Below, piece by piece: positions 1,630 through 49,543 of a stretch of 64,000 bases of DNA (position 1 is the first letter of the stretch; every line of letters starts with the position of its first letter). The notes beneath the pieces were generated by a model. That model saw only the letters and a list, made by a program, of their open reading frames with translations, was not told the origin of the DNA and did no database searches. The stretch comes from Siphonodentalium dalli (lineage: Eukaryota; Mollusca; Scaphopoda; Gadilida; Siphonodentaliidae), in the NCBI GenBank assembly GCA_032622095.1, contig CP136067.1, positions 93,612,707-93,676,706 of the forward strand. The letters run 5' to 3'. Position numbers and translations under genes: made by a program.

Positions 1630-2935
1630 TTTTCCGAAGACCCATAACTCCGAAGGTCCGATTCTCCGAAGGTCAGATTCTCCGACGCCCCGATTCTCAG
1701 AAAGCCCATAACTCCGAAGTCCCGATTCTTCGAAATCCCATAACTCCGAAGACCCATAACTCCGAAATTCCATAACTCCGAAGACCCATAACTCCGAAAG
1801 CCCATAATTCCGAAGGCCTATAACTCCGAACGCCCATAACTCCGAAGGTCTATAGCTCCGAAGGGCCGATTCTCCGAAGGTCCGATTCTCCGAAGGTCCG
1901 ATTCTCCGAAGATCATGTTTTATCGCTTATTAAATAGTGTACAGTCCAGTGGCGGGGTCAATGGGGGCCTAGGGAAGACCGCCCCCAAAAAACATGTCAA
2001 ATGTCATGTAAACGTCAGGAAATCCCTCCTAGGCATTCAAATATTCACAGTGTTCCTGCCCAGGGGAGCCCCCGGACCAACGATTGGGGGCGACCCCTTC
2101 CATGTATGCGCTCCCCAAATCAGGCCTTCGTGATATGCTTTCGGCATATCATATGCATGATATATCCCCCACATATCCCCCACATATGCTAATTAATGTG
2201 CACCCCTAAATGGGAACCCTGGCTCCGCCACTGATGTGCACCGGGTATATTATAACGAAACGCTGCAAGAATGTCAGAGTAGCCTAACATGCACAGGGTC
2301 GACAAGTTCTTCCCCGTTCACCCCTGTACATATTACTCTGGCATCTCATGGGCCAACGTAACGTTATAGTATCTGGTGTATAGTCAGTGGCGGGCCAGGA
2401 TTCCCATTTAGGTGGGGGCAGTAGGAAAAGTTTGAATATTTTGATGCCCCATGAACGATTTCCGGGCGTTTACATGACATTGGACATGTTTTGGTAGGGG
2501 CCCATATTGTCTGAAATAGCAAGTAGAGGTTTAATGGGGGCAGTGGGAATTTTGGGACCCCTTGGCTTCGCCACTGGACTGTACACTATTTAGTAAACGA
2601 TATACCCCGGTAAAACAAAATCTTCGGACCTTCGGAGAATCGGGCCTTCGGAGTTATGGGCCGTCGGAGAATTGGGCCTTCGGAGTTATAGGTCTTCGGA
2701 GAATCGGCCCTTCGGAGTTATAGGTCTTCGGAGTTATAGGTCTTCGGAGAATCGGCCCTTCTGAGTTATGGGGTTTCGGAGAATCGGATCTTCGGAGTTA
2801 TGGGCCGTCGGAGAATCGGGTCTTCGGAGTTATGGGCCGTCGGAGAATCGGGTCTTCGGAGTTGTGGGTCGTCGGAGAATCGGGTCTTCGGAGTTGTGGG
2901 CCTTCGTAGTAATAGGTCTTCGGAAAACCGGTCTG
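1630..2935. mobile_element. Foldback-type palindromic element, 1.3 kb
   Basis: The left end (about 1633-1912) is an array of CCGAAG-type words alternating with CCCATAACT and CCGATTCT. The right end (about 2618-2932) is the reverse complement of that array. Homology in inverted orientation continues inward almost to the centre near 2305, including CAGTGGCGG motifs at about 1948 and 2388 and their complements at about 2235 and 2577. The whole therefore reads as one long palindrome. The CAGTGGCGG/CCGCCACTG pairs look like termini of a smaller element captured in both arms. No transposase frame was seen. Outer ends are approximate. Confidence 0.75.
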
Positions 2936-3233
2936 ACACCCGTTTCTCTGTGCGTCGAACATTCATCAGCTTTTGACTCTACTGTCTTAGGACAATCCCA
3001 ATGGGCTTTTTGCCTGTAGTACCAGGATTAGATCTATTCTCGCTCAATATCATGGCTTTACAGTTTGGGTTAGCTTATCAGGTTACGATATAGACAATTG
3101 AACTCACGCAATCTTCTGGGGTGGCGGTACGGTAGGTAATAACCTGTTCCATGTGAACAGGTGCATTTCAGAACTTTGAGCCTTGCATCATGCCAACAAC
3201 ACACGTTGATGCCCTGCTTGAAGGAGTCCTTTG

Positions 3234-4223
3234 TAGGGGTGGCACGATTAGTCGTATAATCGATGAACCGTTGATAATGCCAATCATCGATTACCATTTA
3301 CATCGTCGATTAATATGCATTATTTAATTTGACATCAGGACATGTCCAGTATTATTGAATACCATGTTTGTTTTACACAGTTTAATCTACAACTGATGGG
3401 TTAACAACCTGTGATCGCATATCAACGAGATTCCGTCAACAGGAGTACTACTAACCTATGTTGCAATCAGTCTGCAGTTCATTTGATGATGCGCCATGGT
3501 TACTCTTCATGTTGTTGTTAATTCTACAAATTGGCGGCCCTGCAGCTTTGAAATTTTGGCGATGTCATTGTATATTTCTACTTGTAAGGCGGAACTACAT
3601 CTTTGATATATACCGACTGTCACTGTCTTCAATGAGCTGAATGCACTTGCCCTTGAATCTGATTGAACCAATGGGAGTTGATTGAAATTCTCTGGACACT
3701 AGGGACCCTATGGCATTTTAATCAGCAATGTTCTCCATGATGTCATTTGAGTATACTGTGCTTGAATAAGTATCCTTAGAGGTTAATTGTATAGGCTATT
3801 ACGTATCATGCAGTGAATGCTGAATGAACCTCGATATTATCAAATACAAACCATCGGCCATTCATTATGCATTCCTACTTTTATATGGTTTGCATGTTTG
3901 GCTATTCAGACACTGAAATTCATATTTACGTTCGTTCTAATGAACTCACAAATTCTATTATCACCATAACATGGCCGATAATTGTGCAGGTATAGAATAC
4001 ATTCTGTTCATTGGTCAATAAAAGTGGTTTGTGATGCACTTCATTACTGTAAACATGTCCTGAGCCGATTCCTCAAACAACAGTGACATTGTAGTTACCC
4101 AGCACCAAGCCAATAGGCCATATTACAGAATACTTCCACTGATGGTGTTAGGTACGATTAATCAATTATAGTCTATTGTTGCCGACCGATTGTCGATTAT
4201 CAAAATAAATAGTCGTGGCACCT
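3234..4223. mobile_element. Probable non-autonomous hAT-like element
   Basis: The left end TAGGGGTGGCACGA is matched in inverted orientation by the right end TCGTGGCACCTCT. Both ends continue into self-complementary words of the ATAATCGATTAT / CGATTAATCG type. The terminal sequence and subterminal repeats resemble hAT superfamily elements. I could not confirm an 8-bp target duplication: the flanks GTCCTTTG and GAATCGGG do not match. It is therefore old, rearranged or misbounded. The interior has no recognisable transposase. Confidence 0.5.
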
Positions 4224-5640
4224 CTGGAATCGGGCATTATTGTACTCAGTGCTCCTTTTTTGACATGCTGTCTTGCATTACTCAAACAGACGGGCAATTC
4301 GTCTAACGGCGCACATGAGACAATCATTGTTGGCGACAGAGAGTCTCTGCCCGCGGGGAGGACCTAGGGTCCGGGTCCTCGCTGTATGAGCGACAGACAA
4401 CCATCCGACCATACACACATGTGACTGGTCTTCGGTAAATTTTGCCTTCTGTTCACACCTCTGGCATACCTCCTCGACCTCATGTCGACCGAGTATATGC
4501 TTTCTCCTTGGTCGTTGCGGTGGGCTAAAAACAATAACTGCTCATGGACCCGGGCCCTTTGGCTGTTAAGAACAATCAGTGAATAACAAGCAGACACAAT
4601 CTTCTTGTTATCAACAGTCTGGTTGTTTTTGGGACCTTAATCATCCATGGCCTGTTCCTTCTTTCAGACTGTTTGAAGTAGTTCCATCACGATGGGTCTC
4701 CTCCTTCTACACATTTTCTAATATGTTACATGCAGACTGCAAAGTATTCCTTTGAATCAAGTGTACGTGTAACTGCATACACTATTGGATTGACAGGCTG
4801 TGGAGGTAGTTACAACTCAGGACTCTCCGAACTTTTTCTTCTCGATTGTTTCGATACCAGAAAACATTTTGGGAATTTCCAAGTCCTATAACGCTCTTCA
4901 TGGACTTAGTTACCTGGGGTTTTTGTTACCAGTTTCCAGACTTAAAGTAACTACCAATCATGGGCATTGTCGGACGGAATATGGCCTCTGTCCGGTGTAT
5001 TAATTCACTGAAATAAAATACTGTCCTTTTGATGGTCAGTCCGAAAATACTTCTTTTGCGCCTTTATCAGTTGGTCGAGTTAGACACCGTTACTGCCAGT
5101 AGGTCGCAAACCTTACAATCATGATGCGGTGGCTATTTAATTCTCGGTTTTCTTCACCATACATGACTTGGTGGTATGTTTCTAATCGTATTTACAGTTG
5201 CCACTTCCTCGTTTTGCATCCATATTGACCATTCAGGTAACAATAGATTTCCTTCCTCTGGTGTCGAAACGTTGGGATATCTTGGTTCGTTCAGTCACAT
5301 ACCATGGAGCAGGGTGGTCTATGCTTTCTGCATATGACCAGCTTACTCCAGGGAGGAGGTGGCACATGCATGTACCTGCATATGACCTTGGGGAGTTTTC
5401 ACAATTACAGGTTTGTCTGACTTCAGAACCAAAAGGGGGGGGGGGGAGGTGCAGAGATTCAGCCAATGGGCTCATTCTTCCACTTTCTCCACTCTACCTT
5501 GTACCATCAATAAAATTTGCAAATCGGTACCTTTTGGATCCATTTGTTGCTACACAGCAGGTTCAAATTAATTACTCTTAACTACAATACAATAGTTTCT
5601 CATTCCTCGCAGCCTCCTCCTATGAGTTGATTCTACCATG
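4224..5640. other. Intergenic or intronic sequence, nothing identified
   Basis: I read this for a missing MAM exon A (CxFE...FDW...GPxxDHT) on the + strand and found none. A 127-codon plus frame at 5198-5581 shows no recognisable domain and runs through a G-tract at 5435-5446, so I treat it as chance. No RNA gene was recognised. Confidence 0.4.
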
Positions 5641-5642
5641 TA

Positions 5643-5727
5643 GTTCAGTGTGTAACGTATCTTTGAAGGGAATATAACATTTTCAATAGAAAATACATAT
5701 TCCCTATAAGATACTTACACACTGAAC
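5643..5727. repeat. 85-bp hairpin repeat (GTTCAGTGTGTAA family)
   Basis: The left arm begins GTTCAGTGTGTAA and the right arm ends TTACACACTGAAC. The arms stay complementary through the AGGGAATAT / ATATTCCCT stretch around an AT-rich loop. A truncated copy in the opposite orientation lies at 8555-8608, directly before the first identified exon of the MAM gene. Confidence 0.75.
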
Positions 5728-5739
5728 TCACACTGCCCC

Positions 5740-6125
5740 AGTTTCCTGACCATGAATTATTCATGGTTATTCAAGGATAATTCATGAATAACCATGGTTA
5801 TTTAACCATGAATATTCATGGTTATTCATACTTTTTAACCATGGATATTCATGGATATTCGTGGTTGTTAAATGGCCCATATTCATGGTCCATGAATATC
5901 CATGAACAATGAATATCCATGAATAACCATAGATATTCATGGTTAATAACCATACATGTAGATATCCATGAATAACCATAGATATCCATGAATAACCATA
6001 GATATTCATGGTTAATAACCATACATGTAGATATCCATGAATAACCATAGATATCCATGAATAACCATAGATATTCATGGTTAATAACCATGGATATTCA
6101 TGGTTGATGAATATTCCCCAACCAT
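5740..6125. repeat. CATGAATA-word minisatellite, 69-bp higher unit
   Basis: The array is built from short words (CCATGAATA, ATTCATGG, GGTTATTCATG) that are one another's reverse complements. Between about 5930 and 6090 the words settle into a 69-bp period containing ATAACCATACATGTAGATAT. The long open frames on the minus strand follow from 69 being a multiple of three and are not genes. This is the left boundary array of the element at 5740-8262. Confidence 0.85.
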
Positions 6126-7259
6126 GTCAAATGTTTCTAGGTATGAAAGATACAAAATGTCTGCTGGTTTCCACATAATATAATTGTTCTGTTTTGGTCG
6201 ATAACAACAACTTCTATACAGATGCATATCATATAGAACTAGCAGTTTTACACAATTTAAGTTTGTACGTCAGTACTGTCACCTGCACTGCAGTGGCATC
6301 GCCATCAGAACTTCAGTACGAAAACGACACAGGTCGGCATGGGCTGGCCTAGATCCTAATATACTTGAATGCATATGGAACATCACCAGCTGAAATCACT
6401 GGAATTTCATGGTTGATCAACTGAATCCGAATTTCATGGTCATTGAATTTTCCTATCCAGTCTCCACTGTTCATCCCATTCAAAATCGGCGAGCTCGCCG
6501 GTTTCCGTGTCAAGACACCATCTCACTTCGAATTGAAATTTGGATGTATTGTAAACAGCACTACTACTAGTATTGCCTTCACATAATAATGAAGAATGAT
6601 TACGGTATTCCAATTTTATAGTTTTACGATGTGCACACACTGTCATAATAATCATATTCCATATAATTATATTCCTCAAAGTTCCCTCAAGTTCAACAGA
6701 TCCACTGATTGTGTGCGACGGTTTTCAATTTTGAAAATTAGAGTAATTTTGACCGCGCAAAATTTCGCCTGTTTGAAAAAGCGGCTTGCAGAAAGAAACG
6801 GATCGTTGAGGTTGTTTTATGGGTATTTTGCTTCATCAGGATTATTTCTACACAAAATATATACAAACAATGATTTACATTGGCATTATATTAATAAATG
6901 ATATATCTAAAACGTCGCACATTTTGTATGACTCAATTCCTTATTCCAGTTCCCGTTCCCGTTTTTCACTTTTAAATTTATTACTTTCGATTTCAAAGGC
7001 ACATCCCCCCCACGATATATTTGATTTGTTTTCATGATTATAAACCCAGGATCGCGACAATAAAGCTATTCGATAAAAGAACTGATAAAGCCACATGGGG
7101 TATTAAACCTTTTAAAAACATTATTTTGAATTTTGTTGTCCATAAATTGCATAATCCATCGCTTGTTAGATCGGAATTTAAAAAAAATAATCAGCCCCCG
7201 AAATTGGGAAAAAATGTCCCCACGGTAAATCACATGTTACCACGGTGTTTCACACAGAA

Positions 7260-7620
7260 TTGATTTATTTTGCTGTGGATTATGTTGAAACTAATGATGC
7301 AAATTATCAAACACAAACTTTAAACAAATATATGGTGAAAACAAAATTGAAATATTCCAAGTTTAAAATGCACATGTGGCGAACAAAGATTCCAATGCAC
7401 TAACTGCGAACTTGAAACTAATTTAAAATTTACTGTGAACTTATCGCGAATGGTTTGCCTCGAATCTAAATTTTCTGCAAAGTTGCAGCAAACATTTACA
7501 AAATTTACTGCAAACAAAAAGTTTGCGGCAAAGATCTGCGAATATGTGCAATTGACTTTCTGCGAACAAACCATTTGCCGCTAACTTGCAGCAAACAACC
7601 ATTTCGATAAGGGAATTATA
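7260..7620. repeat. Dispersed repeat, copy 1 (GCAAAGTTGCAGCAAAC family)
   Basis: It matches 19171-20025 in the same orientation over stretches such as TCTGCAAAGTTGCAGCAAAC and GCGGCAAAGATCTGCGAATA. It is rich in TTTGCnGC / GCAGCAAA words. It lies inside the CATGAATA-bounded element, while the second copy lies inside the CCACCATGG-bounded element. Confidence 0.8.
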
Positions 7621-8554
7621 TATGTCAACTTCCTTATCATCATATAAGAAAATATTTATATAAAATGAATATTAATTGATAGAAGCATTTCCAGACAGGT
7701 GTCTTCGACATTATTACTTAATACCGCAAAATATATAAAACGTGTTTACACCTGTTTACGAAGGGATAATCCATCTTTAATTAGTAAACACAGTTTGGTC
7801 TGATTTGATTGTTATAATTGCTTATTGTTCATGGTTGTTCATGGAAGGATGAATTCCAGAATTTTTTTTATTAAATATTAGACTTAAAATATTCATGGTT
7901 ATTCATGATATAAAATTGCTATCCTATTTGTATTTAAATGTTAAACACACTGCATTAGACTTGCCAACATTTCTTACTCAAAATATATACAAAAACTATT
8001 ATATATAAATCCATTAATACATTCATGTTTATTCATGCTTATTCATACTTCCATGGCTATTAGAATTTAATGTTTGCAATAATTCATGCTTATCCACACT
8101 TTTTCCTACCTTATAAACCTGCAAAATTTACTATTTCCAAAAGTTCATATATATTCATGCTAATTCAGACTTTAACACCATGATTAACCATGAACAAGCA
8201 TAACCATGAATATGAATCATGAATAAAGAATGAATATTCATGAATAACCATGAATATTCATGCTTTGTTCGTGCTCCATGAATTACAGGAAACTGGGGAG
8301 GTCCCTCCCAAATTGGGATTTTCCCTCCCCGCTGCTCGGTCACACCCCTCGAATCTTGTAAGAGGATGAAAAAAGATATCTTGACTGTGTCCCCACTTGC
8401 TTATATACATAACAAGTGAACAAATGACCTTGACCTGCTACGTCATATAAATAATGATTCAAAAGGGTACTTAAGCTATTTCGTACCAAAATAATAAATT
8501 TTAAACGGATCTCATAGAATCCTTTCTTGTGAATAAAGATGAATATACCATGTA

Positions 8555-8608
8555 GTTCAGTGTGTAAGTATCTTATAGGGAATATGTATTTTCTATTGAA
8601 AATGTTAT
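8555..8608. repeat. Truncated hairpin repeat abutting a splice acceptor
   Basis: It is nearly identical to the reverse complement of the right arm and loop of the 5643-5727 hairpin, from GTTCAGTGTGTAAGTATC to GAAAATGTTAT. It ends 13 bases before the first base of the exon at 8622. The final tract TTTCATCTTTCAG is not part of the hairpin repeat. Confidence 0.75.
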
Positions 8609-8621
8609 TTTCATCTTTCAG

Positions 8622-11315: not shown

Positions 11316-11528
11316 GTAATGCCCTTAGTAATCGACCCTTTAACCACAGCAGAATTATGGGTAACTTTTCAGGATTTAGTCGGAAATATGGCTTGTTGCC
11401 ATTCATCGGAAAGTTCTCCCCGAGAGCTTTTCGATGAATGGCAACAAGCCATATTTCTGACTAAATCCTGAAAAGTTACCCTTAATTCTGCTGTGGTTAA
11501 AGGGTCGATTACTTAGGGCATTACTGTA
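11316..11528. mobile_element. CAGTAATGCCCTAAGTAATCGA palindromic MITE, copy 1
   Basis: The arms are complementary over about 100 bp (ACCACAGCAGAATTATGGGT, GGCTTGTTGCCATTCATCGG and their inverses) around a GGGGAGAG-like centre. Other copies are flanked by TA, consistent with a Tc1/mariner-type target. This copy ends only 19 bases before the exon at 11548. Confidence 0.85.
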
Positions 11529-11747: not shown

Positions 11748-12353
11748 ATTACCCTGTCATGACTGGAGCCGTGCTGGTGCAGCATTAAATATTTTGTGCC
11801 AGTGCAATCTCTTATATATGTGAGTCTCCCTATGAACTGGCTTAATTACAAAGTCAAGGTAAATATTGTCAGGCCAATGTATTCTCTTATATATGTGAGT
11901 CTCCCTATGAACTGGCTTACAAAGTCAAGGTAAATATTGTCAGGCCAATGTATTCTCTTATATATGTGAGTCTCCCTGTGAACTGGCTTACAAAGTCAAG
12001 GTAAATATTGTCAGGCCAATGTATTCTCTTATATATGTGAGTCTCCCTGAGGTTTTCCCAAACACTCAGGAAGCTCCAGTTACAGTAATGCTCTAAGTTA
12101 TCGACTTCTTAACCACAGCAGAATTATGGGTAACTTTTCAGGATTTAGTCGGAAATATGGCTTGTTGCCATTCATCGGAAAACTCTCCCCGATGAATGGC
12201 AACAAGCCATATTTCCGACTAAATCCTGAAAGGGGAAAGCTTTCCGATGAATGGCAACAAGCCATATTTCCGACTAAATCCTGAAAAGTTACCCATAATT
12301 CTGCTGTGGTTAAGAAGTCGATTACTTAGAGCATTACTGTATGGAAGGGTTAA
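11748..12353. mobile_element. piggyBac-like MITE carrying a nested palindromic MITE
   Basis: It starts near TTACCCTGTCATGA and ends TGGAAGGGTTAA. Relatives at 30194, 46209, 52618 and 53475 begin TTAACCCTTTCATG-like, which fits TTAA targets and CCC-starting termini of piggyBac-type elements. The interior repeats a unit of about 70-75 bp (TCTTATATATGTGAGTCTCC, GGCTTACAAAGTCAAGGTAA) roughly four times at 11810-12055. A CAGTAATG palindromic MITE is inserted at TA (12083-12339), so the palindromic family moved later here. Confidence 0.6.
12083..12339. mobile_element. CAGTAATG palindromic MITE, copy 2 (nested)
   Basis: It is flanked by TA on both sides, with the same arms as the 11316 copy. The centre is expanded by an extra partial arm, about 12194-12240, giving three GATGAATGGCAACAAGCCAT segments. 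It lies within the end of the piggyBac-like MITE. Confidence 0.85.
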
Positions 12354-13937: not shown

Positions 13938-13983
13938 AATTTTGCTTGCTATTTACACTAATCACTGCTGTATTTTATTGTAG

Positions 13984-14402
13984 ATAATCCAACAGTCTGC
14001 GACTTTGAGGCGCCCGCAATCTGTAACTATCAACAAGACAAAACAGACAAGTATGACTGGACATACCACAGCGGCAGCACCTCATCGGGATCCACCGGTC
14101 CACGATTTGACCACACATATGGCACCCAGAGAGGCCACTATGTGTATGCTGAAGCATCAGCACCTCATAGACTGAATGACACGGCTAGAATCGTTAGTCC
14201 AATGTACACCAATACCAACGGTGGGACGAAATGCGTCCAGTTCTATTATCATATGTATGGCATCCATATCGGAACATTGAATGTTTATTTCATGAATAAC
14301 AGACAGACGACCTTCACTAACCCGATCTGGTCAAGGTCGTATAATCAGGGCAACAAATGGATTCAAGGAACAGTCACAATCAATCCTCCTGCCAGTTATG
14401 GG
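13984..14402 (+). CDS. MAM-repeat protein, fused exon A+B of domain 2
   Basis: A single 419-nt exon holds both halves that are split elsewhere. A part: VCDFEAPAICNYQQDKTD, YDWT, then GPRFDHT. B part: GHYVYAEASAPHR, KCVQFYYHMYG, IGTLNVYF, NQGNKWIQG. Conserved cysteines 1-3 are present. The acceptor is TTATTGTAG (phase 1) and the donor is TATGGG|GTATG (phase 0). The junction codon with exon C of domain 1 reads A|AT (Asn). The A/B intron present in domains 4, 5 and 7 is absent here and in domain 3. Confidence 0.95.
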
Positions 14403-14512
14403 GTATGTTTATGTCATTTTGTGATATATAATTTTTCCAGATTTTGAACATTTTTAGTTTTAATCCTTTGGCAGGTAGAGTGACATATATGTTGGCGTAT
14501 TGCAGGGACCAG

Positions 14513-14818
14513 CCTAGAGATATCAAATTGTGAGAAGTCACTTCTCCCTGTTTGGTTATTAGGGAGAAGTGGGCTGTTATCAGGGAGAAGTAACAAGTAA
14601 CTTTGGGTGAAATTCAATTTACACCCCAACATCACCCTTCTATAATCCACTAAGTATTATGCAACACAAGAGCCCATTTATAAAAGAACACCATTATAAT
14701 CTATATTATATATACTTAAAACATGATGTTGGGACATGTGCATACTGGTATATAAGAGAGAAGTCACTTTTCCCTGAGACAAAAATAGGAGAAGTGGTAC
14801 ATTTTAGGCTGTTCCCTG
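14513..14818. mobile_element. Small inverted-repeat element with AGAAGTnACTTCT words
   Basis: The left end CAGGGACCAGCCTA matches the inverse of the right end TAGGCTGTTCCCTG. Subterminal sequence is made of self-complementary AGAAGTCACTTCTCCCT-type words at about 14540-14600 and 14758-14795. No clear 8-bp target duplication. There is no coding capacity. Confidence 0.6.
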
Positions 14819-17757
14819 CTGTTCTGTTGGCGGGTGGAACGAAATATCATTTACAGTAGTTTCAGAATAATATTGTGTTAGGGAGCTTGTCCAATTCCGA
14901 CGGAATCGGTGTTTCCGATGGATATTTCCGATCTCCGATACCGATGGCAATCGGAGTTTTTGTATCGGTATAAAACTCCGATTCCGTCGGAGATTTTTCG
15001 CTGTGTCGTCGGTAAAATCATCCGATTCAATCGGAGTTTTATATCGGAGTTCCCGTTCTTCAAGTGCGGTATGTTTTGGAAAACTCCGATCCCGTGAATT
15101 TTCGTAGGAGCTTTTAATAAATCGTCGTTTCGGTTCTTCGTGTATATTGTTTATATATATACCAGACACAACGGAGAAAGACATGTAACATGTTACGTCC
15201 ATTCTCAGCGACTCGGCCATTTCCGCTTCGCTGAGGAAATAACCTCCCCATAAATAGAAACCATATTCGCGCAATGCTAAAATAGGCCTATAATTATCAG
15301 TCGACGTAAACATCTCCGTAATAATTATAATATCAGATGAATTTATATGATATACTGAGTCGAAATTTATGTCGACTGTATAATTATATGCGTGCAGGAT
15401 TTGAACCGGTGGAATATGATATCTACTGGTAAGTATATTATTGGGTGCATATACAAGATTTGAAATACACTGGGTTTACGGTATTCTCAGAATCCGACGA
15501 TGTTGCAAATATAGTTTATATCGCTAAGTGCAGTTTAATATGGAATAATCCATTTCAATCCCGGCTGGGGGTGCAAATAATTATTCCATTTTCAATGACA
15601 TACCGGTACCCAGGTATTACAACGTACTGGTATCAGTACTGAAATTGTCTTCTAATGTTTCCAAATCCACCTGAACAAACCAAAGATCTATTTCTTGTTG
15701 CATTTTCTGAATAATTATATCGTTTGAACCAACTTTGCGATTCTTAATTCAACTTCGGTCGAGTGAAAACCACGTGTGTGTGTTGTGTTGCAAACCGGAA
15801 GAGTGGATCAATCGGGAGGTTATTGGAAGAGCCTGTATAATTGATGGAAGAGCCGGACCAATCCAGTGACGGCAGAATCAAGCCTCATCCAAATAAGGAA
15901 GTTGGATTTATTTTTATTTTTTATTGATATTGCGAATCGTAGGGATTATTCATATTTAAGAGACGAGTAATACCATCGCACCAGATACATAAACAACATG
16001 TTTTGCGAAAGCGACAAACTGAAAATGACGCAACCAACAATCACGTAATAAAATGTTATGATTTACTCGATATTAAAGCTAGATTTTTCCAGTTTTCTCC
16101 GAAAAGTTTAAATTATAATCGGAGATGGGATGTGTATTCCCTTCATCACAAGGATTTCCCCCTAAACGAACCGTCTGTTCAACTTTTTCTGGTGACTTTC
16201 TCAACTTTTCAGAGGAAGTTTGGCATAAATAAAAATGAAATTATTACACAAAACTCAAATCACATCGCCGTTTTGATATCGGAGAAAACTCCGATGAAAT
16301 CTGATTAAATCGGAGTTTTAACATCGTAGTTTTCATATCGGAGAAAAACTCTGATTTCATCGGAGTTTTGTTCAGAGTTCATCGGAATTTTCACCGGAAT
16401 TGATCGGACCCTTGCAAAACCATCCTATGATTTCATAGGATTATCCTATGATATCATATGATGAAAACCTTTGAAAAGCTTTGATGCATCCTACGAAATC
16501 GTATGATATCCTACGATTGAAAACCTTCGAAAACCTACGAAAACCTTGCGGTAAATGGAACGAAGAAACCTTTGTAAACCTACGAAATCCTTGGATGAGT
16601 GGGAGTTCCAATCCAAGGATTTCGTAGGTTTACGCAGGTTTTCAATCCTATGTTATCATAGGATTTCACAGGATGCATCCAAGGATTTCGTAGGTTTATG
16701 CAGGTTTTCAATCCTATGATATCATAGGATTTCACAGGATGCATCCAAGGATTTCGTAGGTTTACGCAGGTTTTCAATCCTAGGTTATCATATGATTTCA
16801 CAGGATGCATGCAAGGTTTCCCATATAAAAATCCACCATGGTCCCACCTTGGTAAAACCACCTTGGTAATCCACCATGGTAATCCACCTTGGTAATCCAC
16901 CATGGGGTTTTGGCCGCTTTCACGAAGGTGGAATACCGTGGTTTACCGAGGAGGCACCCTTGTGGAATACTGTGATTTACCATGGTGGAATACGGCGGTA
17001 TACCAAGGTGGCACCCTTGTGGAATACTGTGGTTTACCGAGGTGGCATACTGCGGTTTACCGAGGTGGCACCCTTGTAAAATACTGTGGTTTACCGAGGT
17101 GGCACCATTGTGGAATACTGTGATTTACCGTGGTGGAATACTGTGGTTTACCGAAGTGGCACCTTTGTGGAATGCTGTGGTTTACCGAGGTGGCACCCTT
17201 GTGGAATACGGTGGTGTTATCACACCACTATATCATACTATATATGTTAATAAACAGTGGTTTATAACCACTGTTTATCAACATGGTACAATATAGTGGA
17301 GCCATCTTGGCAACACCACAGGAAACTTTAAGATAAAAACAGAAAATGTGTTGAATGAATGAAAGGTTCCACAAAATGTGCCTTCATTGACAACAAATTA
17401 CATTCATTTTGTTTCACTGAAATTTTAACAAAATAACACTATTAAACAGTAAAATGGTTCCATCATTTCTTGTACTATACTGTTCTGTATCGCATGTCAA
17501 ATTTTCAACCCTATATAGAGCTGAGAAATCCAGTTCGATTTTACTGTATGACGTCGATCTTTGTATATGCTGGCCCGCATTGGTCAGTGAGATGGAACAA
17601 GGATATATGAAATGTAAATATATTTATTATTTATTGACTGTCCAAACATTGAGTCAAGTCTAAAGTTTGATGTCCTCACACACAAAGAATCTATGTGCAC
17701 AACTGTACGTGCTACAGTGATCTTGCAAAGCCTTGCATCCACGCGATCCGTAATTTG

Positions 17758-18075
17758 TTAGTTTATTGCAAATAACACAGATTCACTTTCCAGAAACGGC
17801 AACTTTTTCAAAAAATCACTGAGAATGTAATCTTTTTCTTTTAGTACTTTACCATCTTTATGACGAATTTTGACCGGCTTTTGAAACCAGGCAAATGAAA
17901 AATTATTCTTAACTCCAACGTCGTTGTATCGATCGCCTTCTTTCACAATTGAATTCATAACAATCACTTTTAAAACTTCTAATTTCTTTTGAAAGAGATC
18001 GCGAACCGTGAAACTCTTTTGTTCAAAACAAAAGAATGATCGCGGCAAAAAATATCCCGAAGTCCGTCGAGTCAA
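17758..18075 (-). other. Unknown open frame inside the third-level element
   Basis: A 105-codon minus frame with protein-like composition, rich in Lys/Phe/Asp (for example KSFTVRDLFQKK and AWFQKPVKIRHKDGK), in an otherwise AT-rich, stop-dense interval. I recognise no domain, and no catalytic motif is visible. It could be a relic of an element-encoded protein, a captured exon or chance. Weak GC enrichment at its 5' side (18010-18270) continues upstream of the Met. Confidence 0.25.
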
Positions 18076-19090: not shown

Positions 19091-19170
19091 TCATTTTCTC
19101 TTGGGTTTGCATCCAATCTAAATTTACTGCAAAAAAATATACATGAAATATTTGTGGATTGCTAAAATAA

Positions 19171-36445: not shown

Positions 36446-39400
36446 CAGTGAAACCTCTCCAAACAAGACCCTCTACAATCTGAATCCCTCTCAATTCCGA
36501 ATGAATTGTTTGGTCCCGAATTTACCCAAGTGCATTGTCACTAATGATTATAGTAGAGGCTCTTATGTACTCCCGTGTGCACTTTGTGAAGAAATATAGC
36601 GACTATGCCAATGACGTTGCTTGATATCTCAGGCACCAGAAAACAAATGTTAGACACCTTGGGGTCGCGACCGGGTGGATTTATGACGTCATCAAGATGG
36701 CCGCCATACACAATTTCACAGTATGCACTTAGTCAGTTTGATTAATATCTACTTGTAAATTTATTATAGAAATTTGATTATCTCACCACTGACGTGAAAC
36801 TAATACCCCATACTTCCATTTGACAGAAAAAGTGGCCACCAAAAACCAAGATGGCCGCCAAAATGGCGACCGAAATTCGGAAAATTGATGATTTTTCACA
36901 CTTTCCTCTTGAATCATTAACCGATGTTTGAAATTTGTAACGAATAAAGACCTAAATTTGAATAAATTCTAGTATCCAGCCATTTCTACAACATAATATG
37001 TCATAGTTCGGATCTCATTCCTGCCAGCTATCTTTAAAATGTGAATTCAAAAATGTGCTACGAAAGTTAACCAAAATTCAATTATATGATTCTAGCCAAG
37101 AGTTGAACAGAAAATAACTGAATTTGATGAAGATAATGTAAAAATGTTTTAAATATGTAAATTGCCATATAGTTACACTGAAAATAATGCATTTTCGTTG
37201 AAGATGGCGGCCAAGATGGCTGCAAAATGGAGAAATCACCAAAATCTGTCCAATTTTTATTAATATCACTCATGTGTTGGGGAAAAGTAAATATATGTGA
37301 ATATGTGCTACTTTTTCGCGGACATCCATGGACTTATGGAATGATTTGTAAATTTGGTGAACCATGCAGCTGCTTATAACCGAGAATTCAACAGAATTAT
37401 ACCACGAAAATTAAGTCAAATCATCTTCATGGCAGCCACACAAATTTGCAGAATGGGCACAGAGTGAGGAAGAAAATTTAACACAGAAAATGAAAAATAT
37501 TTCTACGGCAATGATAAAATTGCACCAAGCTTCCTTTTGAAAGAACAAGATTGATAAAAAAAACCAAGATGGCTGTCAAAATGGCGACCGAAATATAGAA
37601 ATGTGTTGAATTGTTACACATGCCACTTACATCATTTTCGGTTATTTGTAAACTGTGGCGAGTAGGAATTGTCTTTGTTTTTATCAGTCATGACACCAAG
37701 TACTTTGGAAAACATATTATGCTGTAATTTGTGTCTATTTGTTGTCCATACTCCGAAAAATGCAAATTAAATAATTCGCTTTGTAATTTCACAAATAAAC
37801 TTGCTTATCGAGGTTCTATATTAACATTGGACATAAATAGGCATAATAAAACAAACAAAAGTGTACACAGTTTTAAATATCGTTAGTGTCATTCAATTAC
37901 ACTCGACATTGATCTATTTGACCCAAGATGGTCGCCAGAATGGCCGCCAAAACTCACAGTTATAAAATGTGACAAATGTTTATATTCTCAAACGGCATTT
38001 AGCAAAGGAGTTGGATATATTCGCCCAATCTAAATTATATACTATCATGTTAAAGTATATTGTGACTATGTTTGACCAAACATAGTTTGTTTATAATCGA
38101 GAATATATCAGAATGGACTCTTAGAAACCTAACATGAAATTGCCCAATATAATTTAAACGATCCTGCCCGTTTCCTGGGAAGGAAGTCAAACCAGATATG
38201 TGCTGACTATCATTATAAGGGCATAACGAGTACTCGAACGCAAAAGAATCCCATGCAGTCATAATACAGACAGAAATCCAACTTTATGGCTATATTATTT
38301 CGTTTGGGGCAGATCTGCTTTATTCGTTGCATATTCTTGATTAATTGTTGATCACGTTGATTTCGCCCGGCCACAAAAATTTAGAAGATTCAGGAAAAAT
38401 ATCACACCTTGGCTTCATCGAAGTCGAAGTTGCATTGCTATCATACTGCCACCGGGAAATATAATTGCTCAATTTAGAAATACACAGGCATTACATATTA
38501 GTGCAAACATTATTTCGTATCTAATTATGAAACAGTTGTGTCTAATAAGATACAATAAGGGGAGATTGCATTGTTCAGTTTCTTGTTTTTGGCATATCTG
38601 TGTTTCATCACCCGAAATTCGTTTGAATGGTTGAGACATTGTCACACTTCTCAAGACGTGAGTCAGCACATGTACCACTCTTGTTACTTCGTCCAATAGA
38701 TGGTCACATTGATGGTAGCCTAACTACAACCAACTCACCCCAGCAACTACAGTTGAATTACAAACTCATCTCGCAAGCTAACAGAGCTCACCACAAAACT
38801 CTCCGACTGCATATCAGAGACTCCATATAGAATGTTTCTTTCGGTTGTGGAATGGAGAGTCCATAATACAGATTTAATAAATAAATGTCAATACGGCCGC
38901 TGACCTCATAGCAGATACATTGCATATTCACTTCGATGTAGTCTAACAGAACTGTGCACGTAACCGAGTTAATGCTTGTCAGTTTATTTTAGAATATGTC
39001 AAAACATCAGTATCGGGAAAAAATAGCCTAAGGTTTGTCATTCTCCATGTCGAGTCCAGCAAGTGACAATAACGGCTCCTCAACTTCTTCCTGGTTGGCA
39101 ACGAAACAATATCGTGAAATCAAAATGCCTATGCCTAGTGCCAGGATATTTAGTGATGAAATACCTCATCGAAACACCAGAAGCTCATCTTTGGTCCATG
39201 CCATATGATGGTGAATCGAACTAATGAATGCAGTGACGGGTCATCAAGATCATTTAATGGAACGTTTATTAAGATTTCTTGCAAAACGTCCACATGGGGA
39301 CATTCATTAGCATTATACATCAACTGTTAGTTCACAGAAAGTAAAGATCTTCGAATCACAGAAACCCCGCAATCTCGAACGAAACCTTTAATTGTCCATC

Positions 39401-42400
39401 GAACAAATGTAGTTTATAGAATTTGCTGGCAAACCGCACAACCATAATATTCGGATCCACAAGTAGGCCAATAACAAGCTTGGAATATAGATACTGCGCA
39501 AAAGTTGGAAGTAATAGATAACAATGTTATTCTTGAATAGAGAGAATATTGTGGATTGTTAGCTATTTGAAGAGTCCATAACTGAAATATACTTCAACTA
39601 TTGCTCAGGAAGGTATACTATTACAACGTTTAACGACCTGAGTTTTCCGCAGACCTGATTTCATTGTAGTGGGATATCAAATGTTCCTGTATAAAACATC
39701 TGGAAAGAATACTACAAACTTTCCACCCAATAATAATACGTGTACCTCAACATGTCGGTGAGTTGAATTGCCTCTACAGCCAAGTCGAACTGTGCATTGG
39801 TGCGAAAATTATTATCAATTTTATCTGTAACATTGCCGATAGCCGATACAATTACAGAAATGCAGGTATTTAAAGAAAATTTGGTGTGAATATGTTTCTT
39901 GTATGACATTTTGATGAGACCGCATAACGCAAGCATGAAAGAACTTCGATAACACATGTGACAAAAATGACATAAGTGCATAAGTTCTGCACAGGAAGAT
40001 GTGGACCATACACGGAACGAACTTGTAGTATATGCAATATCCAGAAAACTATCTCTGTGGAACTCAAATACACATGTATACCAATTGAACTCATTATATG
40101 AGGCTATCTTCCTATCCTAGCTCGATCAAAATCAGCCACGCTTTCGCAAATCTTGGGTCTGGAGTCAGTGAGTTGACCTATGAGCTGTCCAGAGCTCCAC
40201 AACAGTTTCTGTTTTGGTACGAACCTGAACATAATTTATCTCTAGTCGCAAAATCGCATGTAATAAGCAGAGGTCTGGCAGAAATCTGCCGATGCGATTC
40301 TTCTTCGCAGAAGACAGATAGAGCTCATATCTGAACGCTCTCGTTTGGTAGTCTGCGACAAAGCAATTACTGTCATATAATCCCCTGATGCACACACAAT
40401 ATGAACTAGATGTTATTCAAGGACGAGCAATTGTAAACAAATTCAGTTTTACAAAAGTATACCCTGTGTTTTCGTACAAGTATATTAATAAGAACGAATC
40501 ACACAAATATTAGCTCCTATTCTTATATTTGGACTTAGTATACACTAATTATTAAGCTTGTTAACATGGAAGATGTCTGTAATGTCAACGCATTATATGC
40601 CGCTACTGTTTTTGGTTACTGCATTGTGTGATGTCAATTCAATTAATTGCTATGAGCAGCTGCATTTCGGTAGAATTGACTTAGTATGATGGCATTACAT
40701 GAGCAAGACAAGAGTCAAGTGAAAAATTCTTAGCCAAACCCCATAAGGGGGGCGATATCAAGGGGAAGTAATTAAAGTATTGCTCAATACCGACATCCTT
40801 ATTGTTGAGGTAGGGATTTTTCTCCAGTTGAGTCACCCAAATCAGGACATTTCCGCTGTACATGTAATGATGGATGTAATCAGCATATATTCAGATTTGG
40901 ATATTTTCAAATAGGTCAACATCAGATGAATTTATCTACTTTTCATGGTTTCTGTTTCCATTCTCATGAAATCTCGGATATAAGCAGCTACTGTTCGCAA
41001 AATATTCATATTGTATCAGATTGTATCAGCATTCCTGGCACTTTTGTCAACAGGGGAACAAATGTGTTTACCAGTAGTCACTGAAACCCACATTAGGAGC
41101 GTTATCAATGAAAACTAGCAAATTTGGATGATTTCTCCATTTTGGTAACCATCTGAGTCACCATCCTGAATTTAGATTTATGTGGATAATAATATCTTAA
41201 TCTACATATCATGGTTGCGGAATGATTAGATAGTATAATTCATTCAAAATAAGGTTGCTAGTAGCCACCGATTTCAAACCGCTGTGAATAATTTAAGCGG
41301 CGAGTGTGAAAAATCATCAATTATTAGAATTTCGGTCGCCGTTTTGGGAGCCATCTTGGATTTTGAGGTCCAAATTGCACCGTCAAGAGGAGGTGTGATC
41401 CAATGGTATTATTGGTCGCGAAACATAATCATTTCACTATCTAAATTTTCCCCCCAGACTCAATGCCAACTCTGAAATTGTTCATGGTTGCCATTTTGAT
41501 GATTTCATCTCATTTTCGTCGTTTCATTCTCTCGAATTCTTGAGTATAAACAGCCATTGTTCACAAACTATTCATATTGTTTCATATCTCCATGTTATTA
41601 CGCCAACACGGAGCAAATATATTCACCTATATTAACTAAATCGCACATTAGGAGTGATATCAAAGAAAATTTGACAAATTTTAGTGATTTATCAATTTTG
41701 ACAACCATTTTGGTCGCCATCTTGAATACAGATGCACTTTTTTGGTTATAATTATATGGCAATCTATATGTTTAAATCTGTTGCAAATGTTTGTCATCAA
41801 AATCAGCTATTTTCTGGGTAACACTTGGCTTGAATTACAAAATCGATATTTGGTAAAATTTCATAGCATATTTATGAATTCACATTTTGACGACATTTTG
41901 TAGGAATAAGACCCAAACTGTGAAATATTATGATGCCCAAATGGTTAGGTGTTTAAATGTATTTAAAATTAAGTTGCTATTAGCCACAGATTTCAAACAA
42001 CCGTGAATGTTTTTAGAGAAATATGTGAAAATTCATCATTTTCCCGAACTTCGGTCGCCATTTTGGCGGCCATCTTGGTTAAATGTGGTCAATTTTTCTG
42101 TCAAAGTGAAGCCTGTTATCATAGTATCACAACAGTAGAGAAATATTATATTTCGTACCATAAATTCACTACTAGCTATTAATCAAACTGATTCAGTGCC
42201 TACTCTGAAATGTTGGATGGCGGCCATCTTGATGACGTCATAAAACCACCCAGTCGCGACCCCCAGGTGTCTAACATTTGTTTTCTTGTGCCCCAGATAC
42301 CAAGCAACATCATGAGCATAGTGGCTATATTTCTTCACAAAATGCACACGGGAGCCAAAAAATGGACATAAGAGCCTCTACTATTACCTCTGTAATCCGA

Positions 42401-43247: not shown

Positions 43248-43804
43248 TATAAGGTAAAAAAAAGAAAAGATATTTGATTCTCAGGAAATATTTTGAAAAT
43301 CAATGCGTAGGGAGGGTTTAATTTCTATTTTTTATTTTGTTCTGCCCACTGACTGGCATAGTAGGCATATGTTATTATACCTTCCCAGGTTCAGAAAATG
43401 TAGGGACAACTTTATAATGGATTTAAACTAATTTAATCTGATATAAAGAATGACAAATTATGACATTATACTACCCGTACATCATATAGGGATTACCTAC
43501 AATGATCTATATATTGCTATGATTTTAATATCAGCAAAATCATGTTTAACAACATGCTCCGAACTACATATCCGATTCATATAAAAATACAGAACATAAA
43601 TGCAGTCGAAATGAAAAGATAAAGTGATGAAACAATGAAATTTAAAAGCTAGCTATGAATGTGATCGCCTGTGAACAGCTGGCTACATTTGTGATCGATT
43701 TGAAAAGTTAGCTATGATTATGATCGGTGCCTTGTGACAATGACCCCATTAGCAACATTAGCCTTATTTCCACTGTGGTTCTGGTACAATATCATCCTTT
43801 CAAC

Positions 43805-44691
43805 TAGGGTTGAAACGATTAATCGACTAGCTGTAGTCGACGCTGAAATGTCAGAACGTCGACTCTGAATTTTGCCGTCGACTAGTCGGAACATAGTGTA
43901 TTAGTTACATGTATAACGTTTTCAAGATCGATTCCGGCATAAACGGTGTTAACTGCGCGTAAGTTACGGTAAGTATAACGTTTGGTGGCACCCGGAATTG
44001 ACAGTGTTACTAGTATAGACACACACGGTGACCTGACTATTAATTGAAAGAATGAAATTGACAGCACAATGTCTCACTCGTCGTTTGAGGTCAAAGACAT
44101 CACTGCGACATGATGGCATTGATTGACGCTGCTTTATCGTTTGTTGGAGACCGCTTTGATCTAGACACTGTATATTTCAATTGATCTCGCACCGTCAGGT
44201 TTATATGATGCGACGCTGTGTGAAGGTCACTTAAGGTGACGTCATTGGTGCTACCGTATATAAATGATACTGACATTAAGAACTATAGGGCGTATTTAGT
44301 CGGAACATTAACATTTTATAGTGACACCGCTCGGCACCAGTTTATTGGTGATCACGTGACTAAACAAAATCTCGAACGCTGATATTAAATTTAAAACCTG
44401 TATAAATTATCGTGTTTCTAATCATTATCCACCACAGGTCTAATTATATAATTACATTCAGTGTGTTGGATAAATATCAAGATGTTTACTGTATTATTTC
44501 CCAAACAAATTGGTGTCTGTGCAGGGAAATGCGCTACGAAATAGACCGTCATTGTATCAGTCATCAGTGTACGCCACATACGATGAATTTTCTGTACCAT
44601 GTTATGTTTGAAAGGTACCGACTAGTCGACGCAACGCGACTTATGGGCCTCGACTAGTCGACTTTGAAATTCACTAGTTGTTTCAACACTA
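43805..44691. mobile_element. hAT-like element with perfect 8-bp target duplication
   Basis: The termini TAGGGTTGAAAC and (inverse) TAGTGTTGAAAC are flanked by CTTTCAAC on both sides (43797-43804 and 44692-44699). Subterminal GTCGACTAGTCG words occur at 43826-43890 and 44617-44663. It is 887 bp with no transposase frame. The right duplication ends 15 bases before the exon at 44715, so the element was inserted in the polypyrimidine region of a splice acceptor. Confidence 0.88.
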
Positions 44692-44714
44692 CTTTCAACT
44701 TTTCATTTTTTCAG

Positions 44715-45051: not shown

Positions 45052-45089
45052 CACTCTGATTCAGTCACAAGTAGAATTCTCTATTACTC

Positions 45090-45690
45090 ATATCTCGAGA
45101 ATGCTCGCCTTTGTGGGTATATTCCACAAATCTTACCCATATCTCGGCACGCTCGCCTCAATGGGTATATTCCACCCATATCTCGGCACGCTCGCCTCGA
45201 TGGGTATATTCCACCCATATCTCGGCACGCTCGCCTCGATGGGTATATTCCACCCATATCTCGGCACGCTCGCCTCGATGGGTATATTCCACCCATATCT
45301 CGGCATGCTCGCCTCGATGGGTATATTCCACCAATATCTCGGCACGCTCGCCTCGATGGATATATTCCACCCATATCTCGGCACGCTCGCCTCGATGGGT
45401 ATATTCCACCCATATCTCGGCACGCTCGCTTCGATGGGTATATTCCACCCATATCTCGGCATGCTCGCCTCGATGGGTATATTCCACCCATATCTCGACA
45501 TGCTCGCCTCGATAGGTATATTCCACCCATATCTCGGCACGCTCGCCTTGATGGATATATTCCACCAATATCTCGGCACTCTCGCCTCGATGGGTATATT
45601 CTAACCATATCTCAGCACACTCACCTCGATGAGTATATTTCACCCATATCTCAGCACGCTCGCCTCGAAGGGTATATTCCACAAGGTTAT
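45090..45690. repeat. 39-bp minisatellite, about 15 copies
   Basis: The unit is ATCTCGGCACGCTCGCCTCG followed by ATGGGTATATTCCACCCAT. Because 39 is divisible by three and the unit has no stop in several frames, it yields long open frames on both strands; these are not genes. Copies differ by few substitutions, so the array is fairly young. Confidence 0.93.
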
Positions 45691-46160: not shown

Positions 46161-46208
46161 GAAACTGGTTCAGTTCCCAATCAGACTTGGGACCCACACA
46201 AAGAGAGG

Positions 46209-46385: not shown

Positions 46386-46571
46386 AGTAGTTATCACATA
46401 AAAAATGTTCAGATAATTAGTTGAATCCTTTCTAAACTAAAGCAACATTGATGAGTAGTTATCACATAGGAAATGTGATAACTACCCCGCTGGACAAAAC
46501 AAGTGTCCAATGCCACCGCGGTGTACTTGCCGTTCGGCCACGGTGTCACTTTGTGGAACCGCGGCTGAGCA

Positions 46572-46705
46572 CTGCGGCCGAACGGCAAGTACACCGCGGT
46601 TGAACGGCAAGTACACCGCGGCCGAACGGCAAGTACACCGCGGCCGAACGGCAAGTACACCACGGTCGAACGGCAAGTACACCGCGGCCGAACGGCAAGT
46701 ACACC
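46572..46705. repeat. 22-bp GC-rich tandem array, left
   Basis: Units of AAGTACACCGCGGCCGAACG plus GC, with substitutions at GGCC/GGTC/GGTT. GC content contrasts sharply with the surroundings. ACCGCGGT and GGCC are self-complementary cores. A few inverted copies lie at about 46513-46570. Confidence 0.9.
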
Positions 46706-49048
46706 GGGGTTAGATTCCTGGTTTGTATCGTCTTTTTTTCTCGAGTTTAAAACATGTTTTATTAGTAGAAATATACGAAGGTTAGTATTTTTAATTACAG
46801 GAAATTTAAATCCGTACATAATATCGGCTTTAAGGTCATTATGCAAATCACATTTATATTTAACCCAACTGTTTCAACGATCTAACGTACCGGTAGATTT
46901 TAATGGAACTTTGTTGTCAAATATAAAAAACGTCGACATACACCTGTCAATCATCCAGGATTAGTTTGTGAGATTTTATTCTCTGCTTTAATTGGTTGGC
47001 TGTGGGAGGAGCTTACCGATATTTTGTTCTAATGGCGTATGCTTTGACACCATAACCGAGATTTGGTAAACTGAAATGATTCCCATGTTTTTATTAGAGT
47101 TGCTATTATTTTTGGAAAAAAATATGATCCAATGAGCATATTAAATAAATGTGTTATATTATCGATCCATATGTGGCAAATCCATTGCCAAGTAAAAATT
47201 AACTGCCAGAAACTTAAAATACGCGACATTTTACACTTTGCTCGATCTATAAGTCCACGGTATTTGCCACCAGAGGATGGACTGAATAAAGATTACACAA
47301 ACAATGTGTGTTGAAATTTTTTTTTGAATTGTGATGGGACACGTGTATAAGGTCAAAAGGAATAATGCACACGTTTCCCCGAACGGACACCCCGAAATTA
47401 GGGGTGGGCGGTAAGCTTTTCAATTCATTTAATGTTTTACATTTTATTATGCATTAACAAGCTATTGAAAATACACCATTTATTGTATTCTCTACCAACA
47501 TTCCTAAATATAAGAATTTAGTCATCATATTCAAATAAAAAATTTCATGTTGACAAGTTTTGAAAACCACTAGTCCTGATCAGAAAATGCAGATAATTTG
47601 GGGGAAACATCGCGTGCACAAACAACCACGCGGTCAATACGTCATGCATGCGTTTATTACTGGTATAATTTATGTAGGAATCTGGATTTTAAAAACCAGA
47701 CAGATATGACATATATTGATATATATAGTATCTCAACAAACATGCTTACTGTAATAGTTTCATAAATAAATAAACATTGGAATACACAGCGGCGCCGTAT
47801 ACGCCAATAAAAAAAAAACGGAGAACCACGATTCTTTTGTTTTCGCAACGGCAGTACATTCTCAGATATTCCCGTTTTGTTGAAGCGATGCACTCTGGTG
47901 CCGTGTTTCCCAGAAAGCCGATTAATTTAGCACAATTCTAATGATCACATGATCTCCCTCCCATATCCGATCTATTGCAAATTCACAAAAACGAACCACG
48001 TGGTCGCATTTATTCAATGGATGTATAAACCATGCATGCCTCATTAAATTTTTATTTTGTTATATATCCATTATAAAGTATTGTTTACGTATATTGCCAC
48101 AAAAAATTGAGTGAAACCCTCGATTGGGAGGTTGATAACCGCCGTTAATTTTGCGCACATCTGTACATCTCAAATGCCAGGTGCACGCGAATTACAATTT
48201 ATTACGTCAGCATTATTCAGAAACAGGGCGCGAGGAATGTAGCAATGACATTGTTTGCTACATCGTAACTGTTTGAGTTAACATGATTGTGACATGTCAC
48301 TTTCTCCTCGATATTCCCTTTCAAGTTTTATCAAAGGTCAATTGGCATGCTGTCGCAGTTTTGTCTTTAAAGTAACCACGGTATTGAAAGGATTTGAATA
48401 TTTAGGTTCATAAAATCTTCGCGGGAGAAAAATACCTGATCACGCACAAACGCTCTTTATTGTTCATTCTGAAGACAATTCTGGCACAGATTTTTATACA
48501 TTCAATGGACGACAGTGAATTCCAAAAGGAGGTCCACATGGGTGGATGTTGTCAGTATATAATTCAAACCAAATAATAGTTTTAATTAATGTAAAAAAAA
48601 AATTATTTTAACAAGAGAAAACAACATCACAATAACAAATATTTCAACATGGGCAAACAAACAGTTCAAAATAGGATGCGACAATCCTTATTTTATAATC
48701 AGTCTTAAATGACAGCATAGTGATTCAATTCTCTCATGATGAGGCTACCACGTGTGCACGACATTCCAATACTTATTTCTCAAAAAGACACATGCTGCCA
48801 AATCTAGATGAAGTCTGTTGTCGGCAACATCACACTTCCGTGTCGCCTAATAATTATCAGCGGGAGCCTATTCTAATCAGTTTACTGGTGGGCCGTTGAC
48901 TACTTAAAAGATGATCACACCTTGTCACCAGACAGATTAACCCTCAAACATATAATAGATCGTCTGACGGACAGTATTTAGACAATGGCCTCATACAAGC
49001 CTCATTTATGGTGCCCTCTTTGTGTTTTTCAACATCATTCCAAGAATG

Positions 49049-49160
49049 GCAAGTACACCGCGGTCGAACGGCAAGTACACCGCGGCCGAACGGCAAGTAC
49101 ACCACGGCCGAACGGCAACTACACCGCGGCTGAACGGCAAGTACACCGCGGCCGAACTGC
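49049..49160. repeat. 22-bp GC-rich tandem array, right
   Basis: Same unit and same orientation as the left array, followed by inverted partial units (GCAGTTCGGCCGTGGTGGCA) up to the terminus. Confidence 0.9.
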
Positions 49161-49543
49161 AGTCAGCCGGTGGAGCCGCGGTGTTGTTGCAGTTCGGCCG
49201 TGGTGGCAACGCAAACCGCACCGCGGTTAAGTGGACATTTGTTTTGTCCAGCGGGGTACTCATCACATAGGAAATGTAGTTCATTTGTTGATCTTATTAT
49301 CTAAACATTTCTATTTATCTTTTGTCTGCTTTTATCACCTTAACATCCCTCCAAATCAATAATAGACCATTCAGTTGTAGACTTTTTAACTGACTGGGAG
49401 AATCCATTTATTATAGATGGGGGTAATTCTTTGATGGACTCTTCCATACATCTTTACACTCTACTTGATGTTCATTAACCTATATTTCACCTTTATTGTT
49501 TCCAAGTGAACAGACATGTTGAAATTAAGGATTTATCTTGTAG

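Follow-up and report, generated by a model that had tools for sequence, protein, structure and literature searches.

Introduction

How a transposase discriminates the ends of its own element from the rest of the genome is understood for only some elements. Here we describe nine repeat elements (E1, E2, A, F, D, C, B, H and G; Table 1) in a 64,000-nucleotide stretch of the genome of the scaphopod mollusc Siphonodentalium dalli (assembly GCA_032622095.1, contig CP136067.1, positions 93,612,707 to 93,676,706, forward strand), hereafter called the window. In most of them both ends carry arrays of a short word, and the word differs from element to element. The window, together with the literature, is the sole basis of all results.

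The closest described systems belong to several superfamilies. The Herves transposase binds CG/AATTCAT, which is repeated at both ends of the element, and a probe with four copies is sufficient; the BED domains of Hermes bind repeats of which the first two form a quasi-palindrome that is bound cooperatively (PMC3143072, PMC10368747). Among mosquito Mutator-like elements (MULEs), short subterminal tandem repeats are present in 10 of the 12 families with long terminal inverted repeats (TIRs). The active Muta1 has nine tandem copies of 12 bp with spacers of 3-4 bp, a target-site duplication (TSD) of 8-9 bp and a TIR of 145 bp, and in the Muta1 and MULE foldback elements the TIR consists of a short terminal motif plus tandem repeats, with non-autonomous derivatives that have varied interiors (PMC5225508). 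The THAP domain of Galileo, a foldback-like member of the P superfamily, binds one site near the end and two in the direct repeats of the long TIR; its authors propose that multiple sites give end specificity to a short motif, and they describe binding to the foldback and Phantom repeats as untested (PMC3688188). The soybean CACTA elements Tgmt have a short TIR, a 3-bp TSD and direct and inverted copies of a subterminal motif with stem-loops; the motif differs between families, and TNPA-like proteins presumably bind it (PMC2613891). In PIF/Harbinger elements a separate Myb-like ORF1 protein binds the TIRs (PMC2836001). The design itself is not new, as hAT, P-superfamily, MULE and CACTA elements have been described with short subterminal motifs that vary from element to element.

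Short motifs at the ends of the transposons studied so far are binding sites, and the words in the window are therefore read here as docking arrays. With a probability of about 0.7, we take them to be arrays of sites for a transposase or an accessory protein in old DNA transposons that are non-autonomous and belong to several superfamilies, partly inserted into each other and apparently located in the introns of a gene with MAM-domain exons. The layout was already known, although the collection is a dense and varied one. A single stretch of 48 kb with about eight families and a private word at both ends of each would be a natural catalogue of candidate end-recognition sites, which could be matched to the DNA-binding domains of transposases by a search of the host genome. 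It is also a warning that such arrays can pass for microsatellites. A literature search at the level of titles and the beginnings of abstracts gave no description of this set of elements, which is no proof of absence.

Word arrays mark the ends of the elements

The window was scanned in 638 segments of 300 bp, in which a 7-mer on either strand had to reach at least five copies and exceed all 60 dinucleotide shuffles. This was the case in 78 segments, 32 of which fall in three plain satellites (25.6-27.8, 45.1-45.7 and 56.2-64 kb). Outside the satellites, 40 of the 46 array segments overlap the end of a listed element by at least 60 bp, compared with 32 of the 474 non-significant segments. The Fisher test (p 1.6e-33) is indicative only and overstated, because the segments overlap one another and the arrays had partly been used to define the ends of B and C; these ends, as well as the inner limits of every end, were placed by eye. 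Six array segments fall away from ends: three of them belong to the interior of B (18.7-19.2 kb), and the others are at 12.0-12.4 kb (two) and 51.1 kb (one). The possibility that the arrays are independent microsatellites unrelated to element ends was rejected on these counts.

The chosen words, with one mismatch allowed, reach 26.5-71.6 per kb in the ends, 0-4.1 in the interiors and 0.05-5.6 in the background, counts that include overlapping matches of palindromic words, in which two positions can be counted (A, for example, has 10 pairs at offset 3). In all elements except E2, the same short motif is clustered at both ends and rare in the interior. The density test is more circular than the 7-mer scan, the end pairing and the null tests, because its words were picked after the ends had been read.

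Each element has a word of its own

For the pairing of ends, the 7-mers shared between left and right ends were counted per position pair with the outer 30 bp trimmed and compared to 100 shuffles. In all nine elements the two own ends share the most 7-mers, being the maximum of both row and column (E1 102.6, E2 3.5, A 49.1, F 9.7, D 36.9, C 24.8, B 13.3, H 30.6 and G 103.5). In eight of the nine the sharing is higher than in any of 500 shuffles or 500 background blocks; that of E2 (3) lies within the null, which has a maximum of 7. The only strong cross-match is between E1 and D (17-18, against 103 and 37 on the diagonal), and the E1 word TCCGAAG and the D word CTCCGAT are alike.

The original prediction had proposed a word array at both ends of every element and a different word in each. 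The second claim is borne out, and the first holds for most listed elements but not for E2. Some of the words themselves had to be revised. CGATTAATCG, named as the word of 3234-4223, is found once in the window, at 43816 within H, and GTCGACTAGTCGAC as quoted has 0 occurrences. Among the full palindromes, CCTATGATATCATAGG, CCACCATGGTGG and AGAAGTNACTTCT occur once each and ACCGCGGT four times; what recurs is the half-word or the unit.

Transposons can carry binding sites of their host, and short words in mixed orientation would suit host transcription or chromatin factors, for which the arrays might act as enhancers or silencers rather than as transposase sites. Host factors predict common words, however, whereas each family here has its own word paired at both ends, with the single strong cross-match given above. 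We consider this explanation very unlikely.

Conservation is centred on the word in five elements

All copies of each word were aligned together with their flanks. Within the word the information is 1.46-1.68 bits, a value inflated by the selection of copies, and the contrast with the flanks is the informative measure. At 9-24 bp from the word, the information is 0.04-0.15 bits in A, D, C, B and H, 1.00 bits in E1 and 0.45 bits in G, and two plain satellites have 1.24 and 1.68 bits. In the former five elements the flank information fades past 8 bp, and it is therefore the word, not a longer unit, that is common to all copies. Such fading is more in keeping with sites than with a repeated unit. 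Tandem arrays, in contrast, make up E1 and most of G.

Both orientations of the word are present within the ends of A, D, C, B, H and G. Adjacent copies at most 40 bp apart, counted with overlapping palindrome matches included, form 33 inverted and 19 direct pairs in A, 11 and 10 in D, 16 and 16 in C, 6 and 12 in B, 6 and 1 in H, 2 and 11 in G, and 2 and 33 in E1. The E1 word TTCGGAG/CTCCGAA keeps to a single orientation at each end (16/1 and 0/20), and the number of inverted 7-mer pairs inside either end is 0. In G, the two 22-bp arrays share one direction (alignment scores of 196 forward and 16 reverse). Self-complementarity of the words as a general rule was therefore rejected. Nor do the elements support one common plan built on such words: those of A, D, C, B and H are in mixed orientation, whereas E1 is a 16-bp tandem foldback with one orientation per end and G is mostly a 22-bp tandem array.

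Growth of the words had been offered as an alternative. The arrays would then be functionless and have arisen by replication slippage, hairpin-driven duplication or unequal exchange, with long inverted word pairs that extrude cruciforms and seed further copies. This fits E1 and most of G, in which units of 16 and 22 bp run head to tail and the information extends across the unit, as well as the tandem blocks reported below for A, C and B. It also fits the single-strand DNA folding of nine segments from the ends of A, D, C and G, which fold far better than their shuffles (z -4.2 to -8.4) compared to three interior controls (0.36, -1.01 and -0.63); B has a z of -2.7 and H of -2.4 and -2.7. However, the E1 segment folds no better than shuffles (z +2.41), the word is common to both ends and nearly confined to them, and conservation in A, D, C, B and H fades too close to the word. 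As an explanation of the arrays as a whole, growth without function appears unlikely to us.

Proposed docking arrays and the observations that weigh against them

The interpretation of the words as docking arrays is based on the arrays at the ends, the private words, the word-centred conservation in five elements and the TSDs. In this scheme, the TIRs would be the cut positions, followed inward by an array of the family-private word that is common to both ends. The word would be the recognition site for the DNA-binding domain of the family transposase or an accessory protein, candidates being a BED finger (hAT), a Myb-like ORF1 protein (PIF/Harbinger) and a THAP domain (P superfamily). Many sites per end would raise avidity and also specificity for a short, otherwise common motif, and the mixed orientation and inverted pairs would suit a dimeric or multimeric protein. 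Several arrays have been enlarged by tandem duplication. We infer from these features that the words are bound by protein and take part in synapsis. The suggestion of transposase-binding arrays made in the original prediction is in line with the precedent of Herves, Hermes, Galileo and CACTA, in the parts of those reports used here, and with the 8-bp fade in five elements.

Several observations weigh against this interpretation. Tandem Repeats Finder detected a 69-bp block (2.6 copies, 5913-6091) in the left end of A, a 66-bp block (3.2 copies, 16611-16820) in the left end of C, and periods of 13-26, 23, 34, 57 and 91 bp in the left end of B; D has only a 12-bp unit (2.9 copies, 21063-21098) and H has none. 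Together with the tandem arrays of E1 and G, the blocks in A, C and B show that duplication made part of the copies. An ACTGAAA array at 18.7-19.2 kb lies inside B and TTTGCNGCAAA words sit inside elements, both at no recognised end. Helical phasing (9.5-11.75 bp, against a null of random placement) is not significant for A, D, B and H, nor for E1, and was rejected as a general rule; C exceeds the null (11.0 bp), and so does G, trivially, as this follows from its 22-bp unit. No TSD was found for A, F, E2 and B, and the 3-bp target of D and the TA of G are short enough to match by chance. The match between the two ends of G extends about 12 bp outside the TA, and its border is therefore uncertain. 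Finally, the 64-kb window showed neither a binding protein nor an autonomous partner of the elements, and neither second copies nor empty sites.

Anatomy of the elements and their superfamilies

Table 1. Elements with word arrays in the window, and the interior segment of A related to B
Element	Position	Strand	Features
E1	1617-2940		Foldback element; borders set by TSD CGTTTCTC at 1609-1616 and 2941-2948
E2	3234-4226		Termini TAGGGGTGGCACGA / CAGAGGTGCCACGA; word array not significant
A	5736-8298		Perfect 13-bp TIR CCCCAGTTTCCTG
A, interior segment	7292-7610	+	Homologous to pieces of B; carries TTTGCNGCAAA words
F	14503-14818		Short; TIR CAGGGANCAGCCTA; GAGAAGT words, 4 copies at one end and 3 at the other
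D	14881-21135		TIR GGGA(G/C)CTTGTCCAATTCCGACGGA; TSD TTA at 14878-14880 and 21136-21138
C	16409-21014		Placed as an insertion in the right array of D; CCCTTGCA near both termini
B	16829-20240		Element or inner shell; CCACCATGG / CCACCTTGG words at 16829-17215 and 20060-20240
H	43805-44691		Probably hAT type, non-autonomous; TIR TAG(G/T)GTTGAAAC; GTCGACTA words at both ends
G	46485-49256		TIR CCCCGCTGGACAAAACAA(G/A)TGTCCA, flanked by TA

TSDs were found in three elements (E1, H and D) and likely in a fourth (C). The target duplications suggest several superfamilies, namely hAT for H, Mutator/foldback for E1, a PIF/Harbinger-like origin for D and perhaps Mutator for C. The termini and targets thus point, as predicted, to more than one superfamily.

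H has the 8-bp TSD of hAT elements, CTTTCAAC, at 43797-43804 and 44692-44699, flush with both termini. The TIRs of hAT elements start with C/T-A-G-N-G, and the H termini TAGGGTTGAAAC / TAGTGTTGAAAC agree with this consensus. With its hAT-like TIR and TSD, H resembles Herves and Hermes, and the elements of the window share with these two a short motif near both ends that differs by element. Unlike the sites in the parts of those reports cited above, the arrays of A, C, D and G are longer and denser. No Pfam match, and no recognised transposase, was found in the two of five H open reading frames (ORFs) of at least 60 aa that were scanned, and the H word is a putative site. The termini of E2 and the TIR of F we also take to be hAT-like; neither has the 8-bp TSD of hAT elements, and no direct repeat of more than 3 bp was found at their termini, for which decay is a possible reason.

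The arrays of E1 are made of a 16-bp unit (TCCGAAG..., Tandem Repeats Finder period 16) at about 1633-1911 and 2629-2924 and form its TIR. They comprise 279 and 296 bp with 16.5 and 18.5 copies, the arms of 280 nt are 79% complementary, and the two ends are mutually inverted (alignment score 275 versus 13). The long TIR, in which tandem subterminal repeats follow a terminal motif, is that of Mutator-like and foldback elements, and the 8-bp TSD falls in their range of 8-10 bp, though the borders were defined by this same TSD. In TSD, repeat period and general layout E1 is close to Muta1 as described in the part of the report used here; its arrays are longer than the 145-bp TIR. Foldback elements also include TU of sea urchins. 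Within 1951-2577 of E1, the arms run on as an inverted pair (1921-1965 with 2558-2602, 87%), and the interior has CAGTGGCGGGG towards its left side and CTTCGCCACTG towards its right, which looks like a further element in the middle.

D carries CTCCGAT words at 14881-15100, 16250-16408 and 21015-21135, and its right-hand array is interrupted by C. Counted with the target, the ends of D agree over 28 bp apart from 2 mismatches. The TSD of PIF/Harbinger elements is 3 bp of the T-T/A-A type, to which the TTA on both sides of D corresponds, though 3 bp may match by chance. No Pfam match, and thus neither a DDE transposase nor a Myb-like protein, was obtained in the three D ORFs scanned; the extract of the PIF/Harbinger report describes no arrays of this size.

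C has CCTATGA/CCTACGA words at 16409-16828 and 20600-21008, with CCCTTGCA flush at the left terminus and 6 bp further in at the right. For B, arrays were found, the left one largely tandem, but no clear TIR or border; an array of TTTCACTGAAA-like words lies at 18820-19090 within B, away from recognised element ends. C and B could be inner shells of one composite element D with three successive end arrays, as the order of words from outside in (D, C, B) is mirror-symmetric and neither a TSD nor a clear TIR was found for B. An insertion of one element into another yields the identical mirror order, however, and C is flanked by a 9-bp direct repeat TTGATCGGA (16400-16408 and 21015-21023), the only two copies on the + strand of the 64 kb. 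Because six of the nine letters belong to the D word and the right CCCTTGCA is offset by 6 bp, this repeat is likely, not certainly, the TSD of C. We regard a composite D as improbable and treat D, C and B as nested elements.

The arrays of A, at 5736-6125 and 7820-8298, contain CATGAAT in both orientations. On either side of A lie copies of a short palindromic repeat (5625-5728 and 8537-8612), with arms (5670-5728 and 8554-8612) of 59 nt that are 98% complementary. In G, the 22-bp tandem unit CACCGCGGCCGAACGGCAAGTA is found at 46570-46706 and 49044-49161, and inverted copies adjoin the termini.

Among the described systems, CACTA Tgmt, as far as its report is cited here, has the layout most like that of A, C and D; no CACTA terminus was found at any listed element. 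Galileo is similar in having several sites for a DNA-binding domain, some of them within direct repeats of the TIR, but in the part of the report used these sites are few (about 70, 561-577 and 701-718 bp from the end) and lie in TIRs of 1.2 kb, unlike arrays of 7-9 bp words. The oyster Helentron-derived HINEs are likewise non-coding elements with satellite-like arrays from a marine invertebrate; according to the extract used, their arrays are found between two modules instead of at both ends, and only the 3' end has a short palindrome (PMC7492417).

Interior DNA common to A and B

Three segments of the interiors of A and B are homologous in the same orientation, namely 7292-7395 with 19206-19302 (80% identity), 7403-7589 with 19780-19975 (87%) and 7583-7610 with 19991-20018 (96% over 28 bp). 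This points either to the insertion of a third element into each of them or to a common ancestry of A and B with differing end words. No convincing left partner for the putative third element, which would carry the shared interior array, was found in the window. An exchange of end words between related families, if real, could raise the interest of the locus. One could go further and imagine that unrelated transposon families here diversify by concerted replacement of inverted-pair arrays at both ends, the word being an evolving private key that separates sister families from each other's transposases. A and B, with interiors 80-87% identical and quite different end words, would be such a sister pair. 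This idea is speculative, and we think it has little chance of being correct.

Coding content, setting and other repeats

The window is AT-rich (62.5%). A Pfam scan was performed on 30 ORFs, 25 of them taken from the 73 ORFs of at least 60 aa in the elements; the other 48, including all nine of E1, were outside the scan. The cut-off was reached solely by the ORFs at 13962-14447 and 24910-25365, which match MAM with E values of 7.9e-33 and 2.6e-30. These two matches suggest that the elements are intronic, within an animal gene that has repeated MAM exons. Additional exon-like ORFs were seen by eye. Because no Pfam family reached the cut-off in the 25 element ORFs scanned, the elements look non-autonomous. 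A minus-strand ORF of 126 aa within B (17758-18138) reads as protein-like; it matched no Pfam family, and a PDB sequence search gave nothing convincing (best E 0.31). The exact patterns of the G and E1 units, the two units searched, gave 0 matches each against viral contigs.

The plain satellites or minisatellites of the window are located at 25608-27805, 45135-45682 and 56304-64000 and have units of 43, 39 and 151 bp. A further element at 36550-42384 has TIRs of about 1.1 kb that start with ATAGTAGAGGCTCTTATGT and are 73.8% complementary, and no array segment was found in it by the scan. Just outside its right end lies ACCTCTGTAATCCGAA, a 16-bp repeat in two copies that by eye resembles the E1 unit. 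In addition, near-perfect palindromes that measure 209-261 bp and are 87-95% self-complementary form a family with members at 11316-11524, 12081-12341, 29206-29416 and 55028-55273 and partial copies in other parts of the window.

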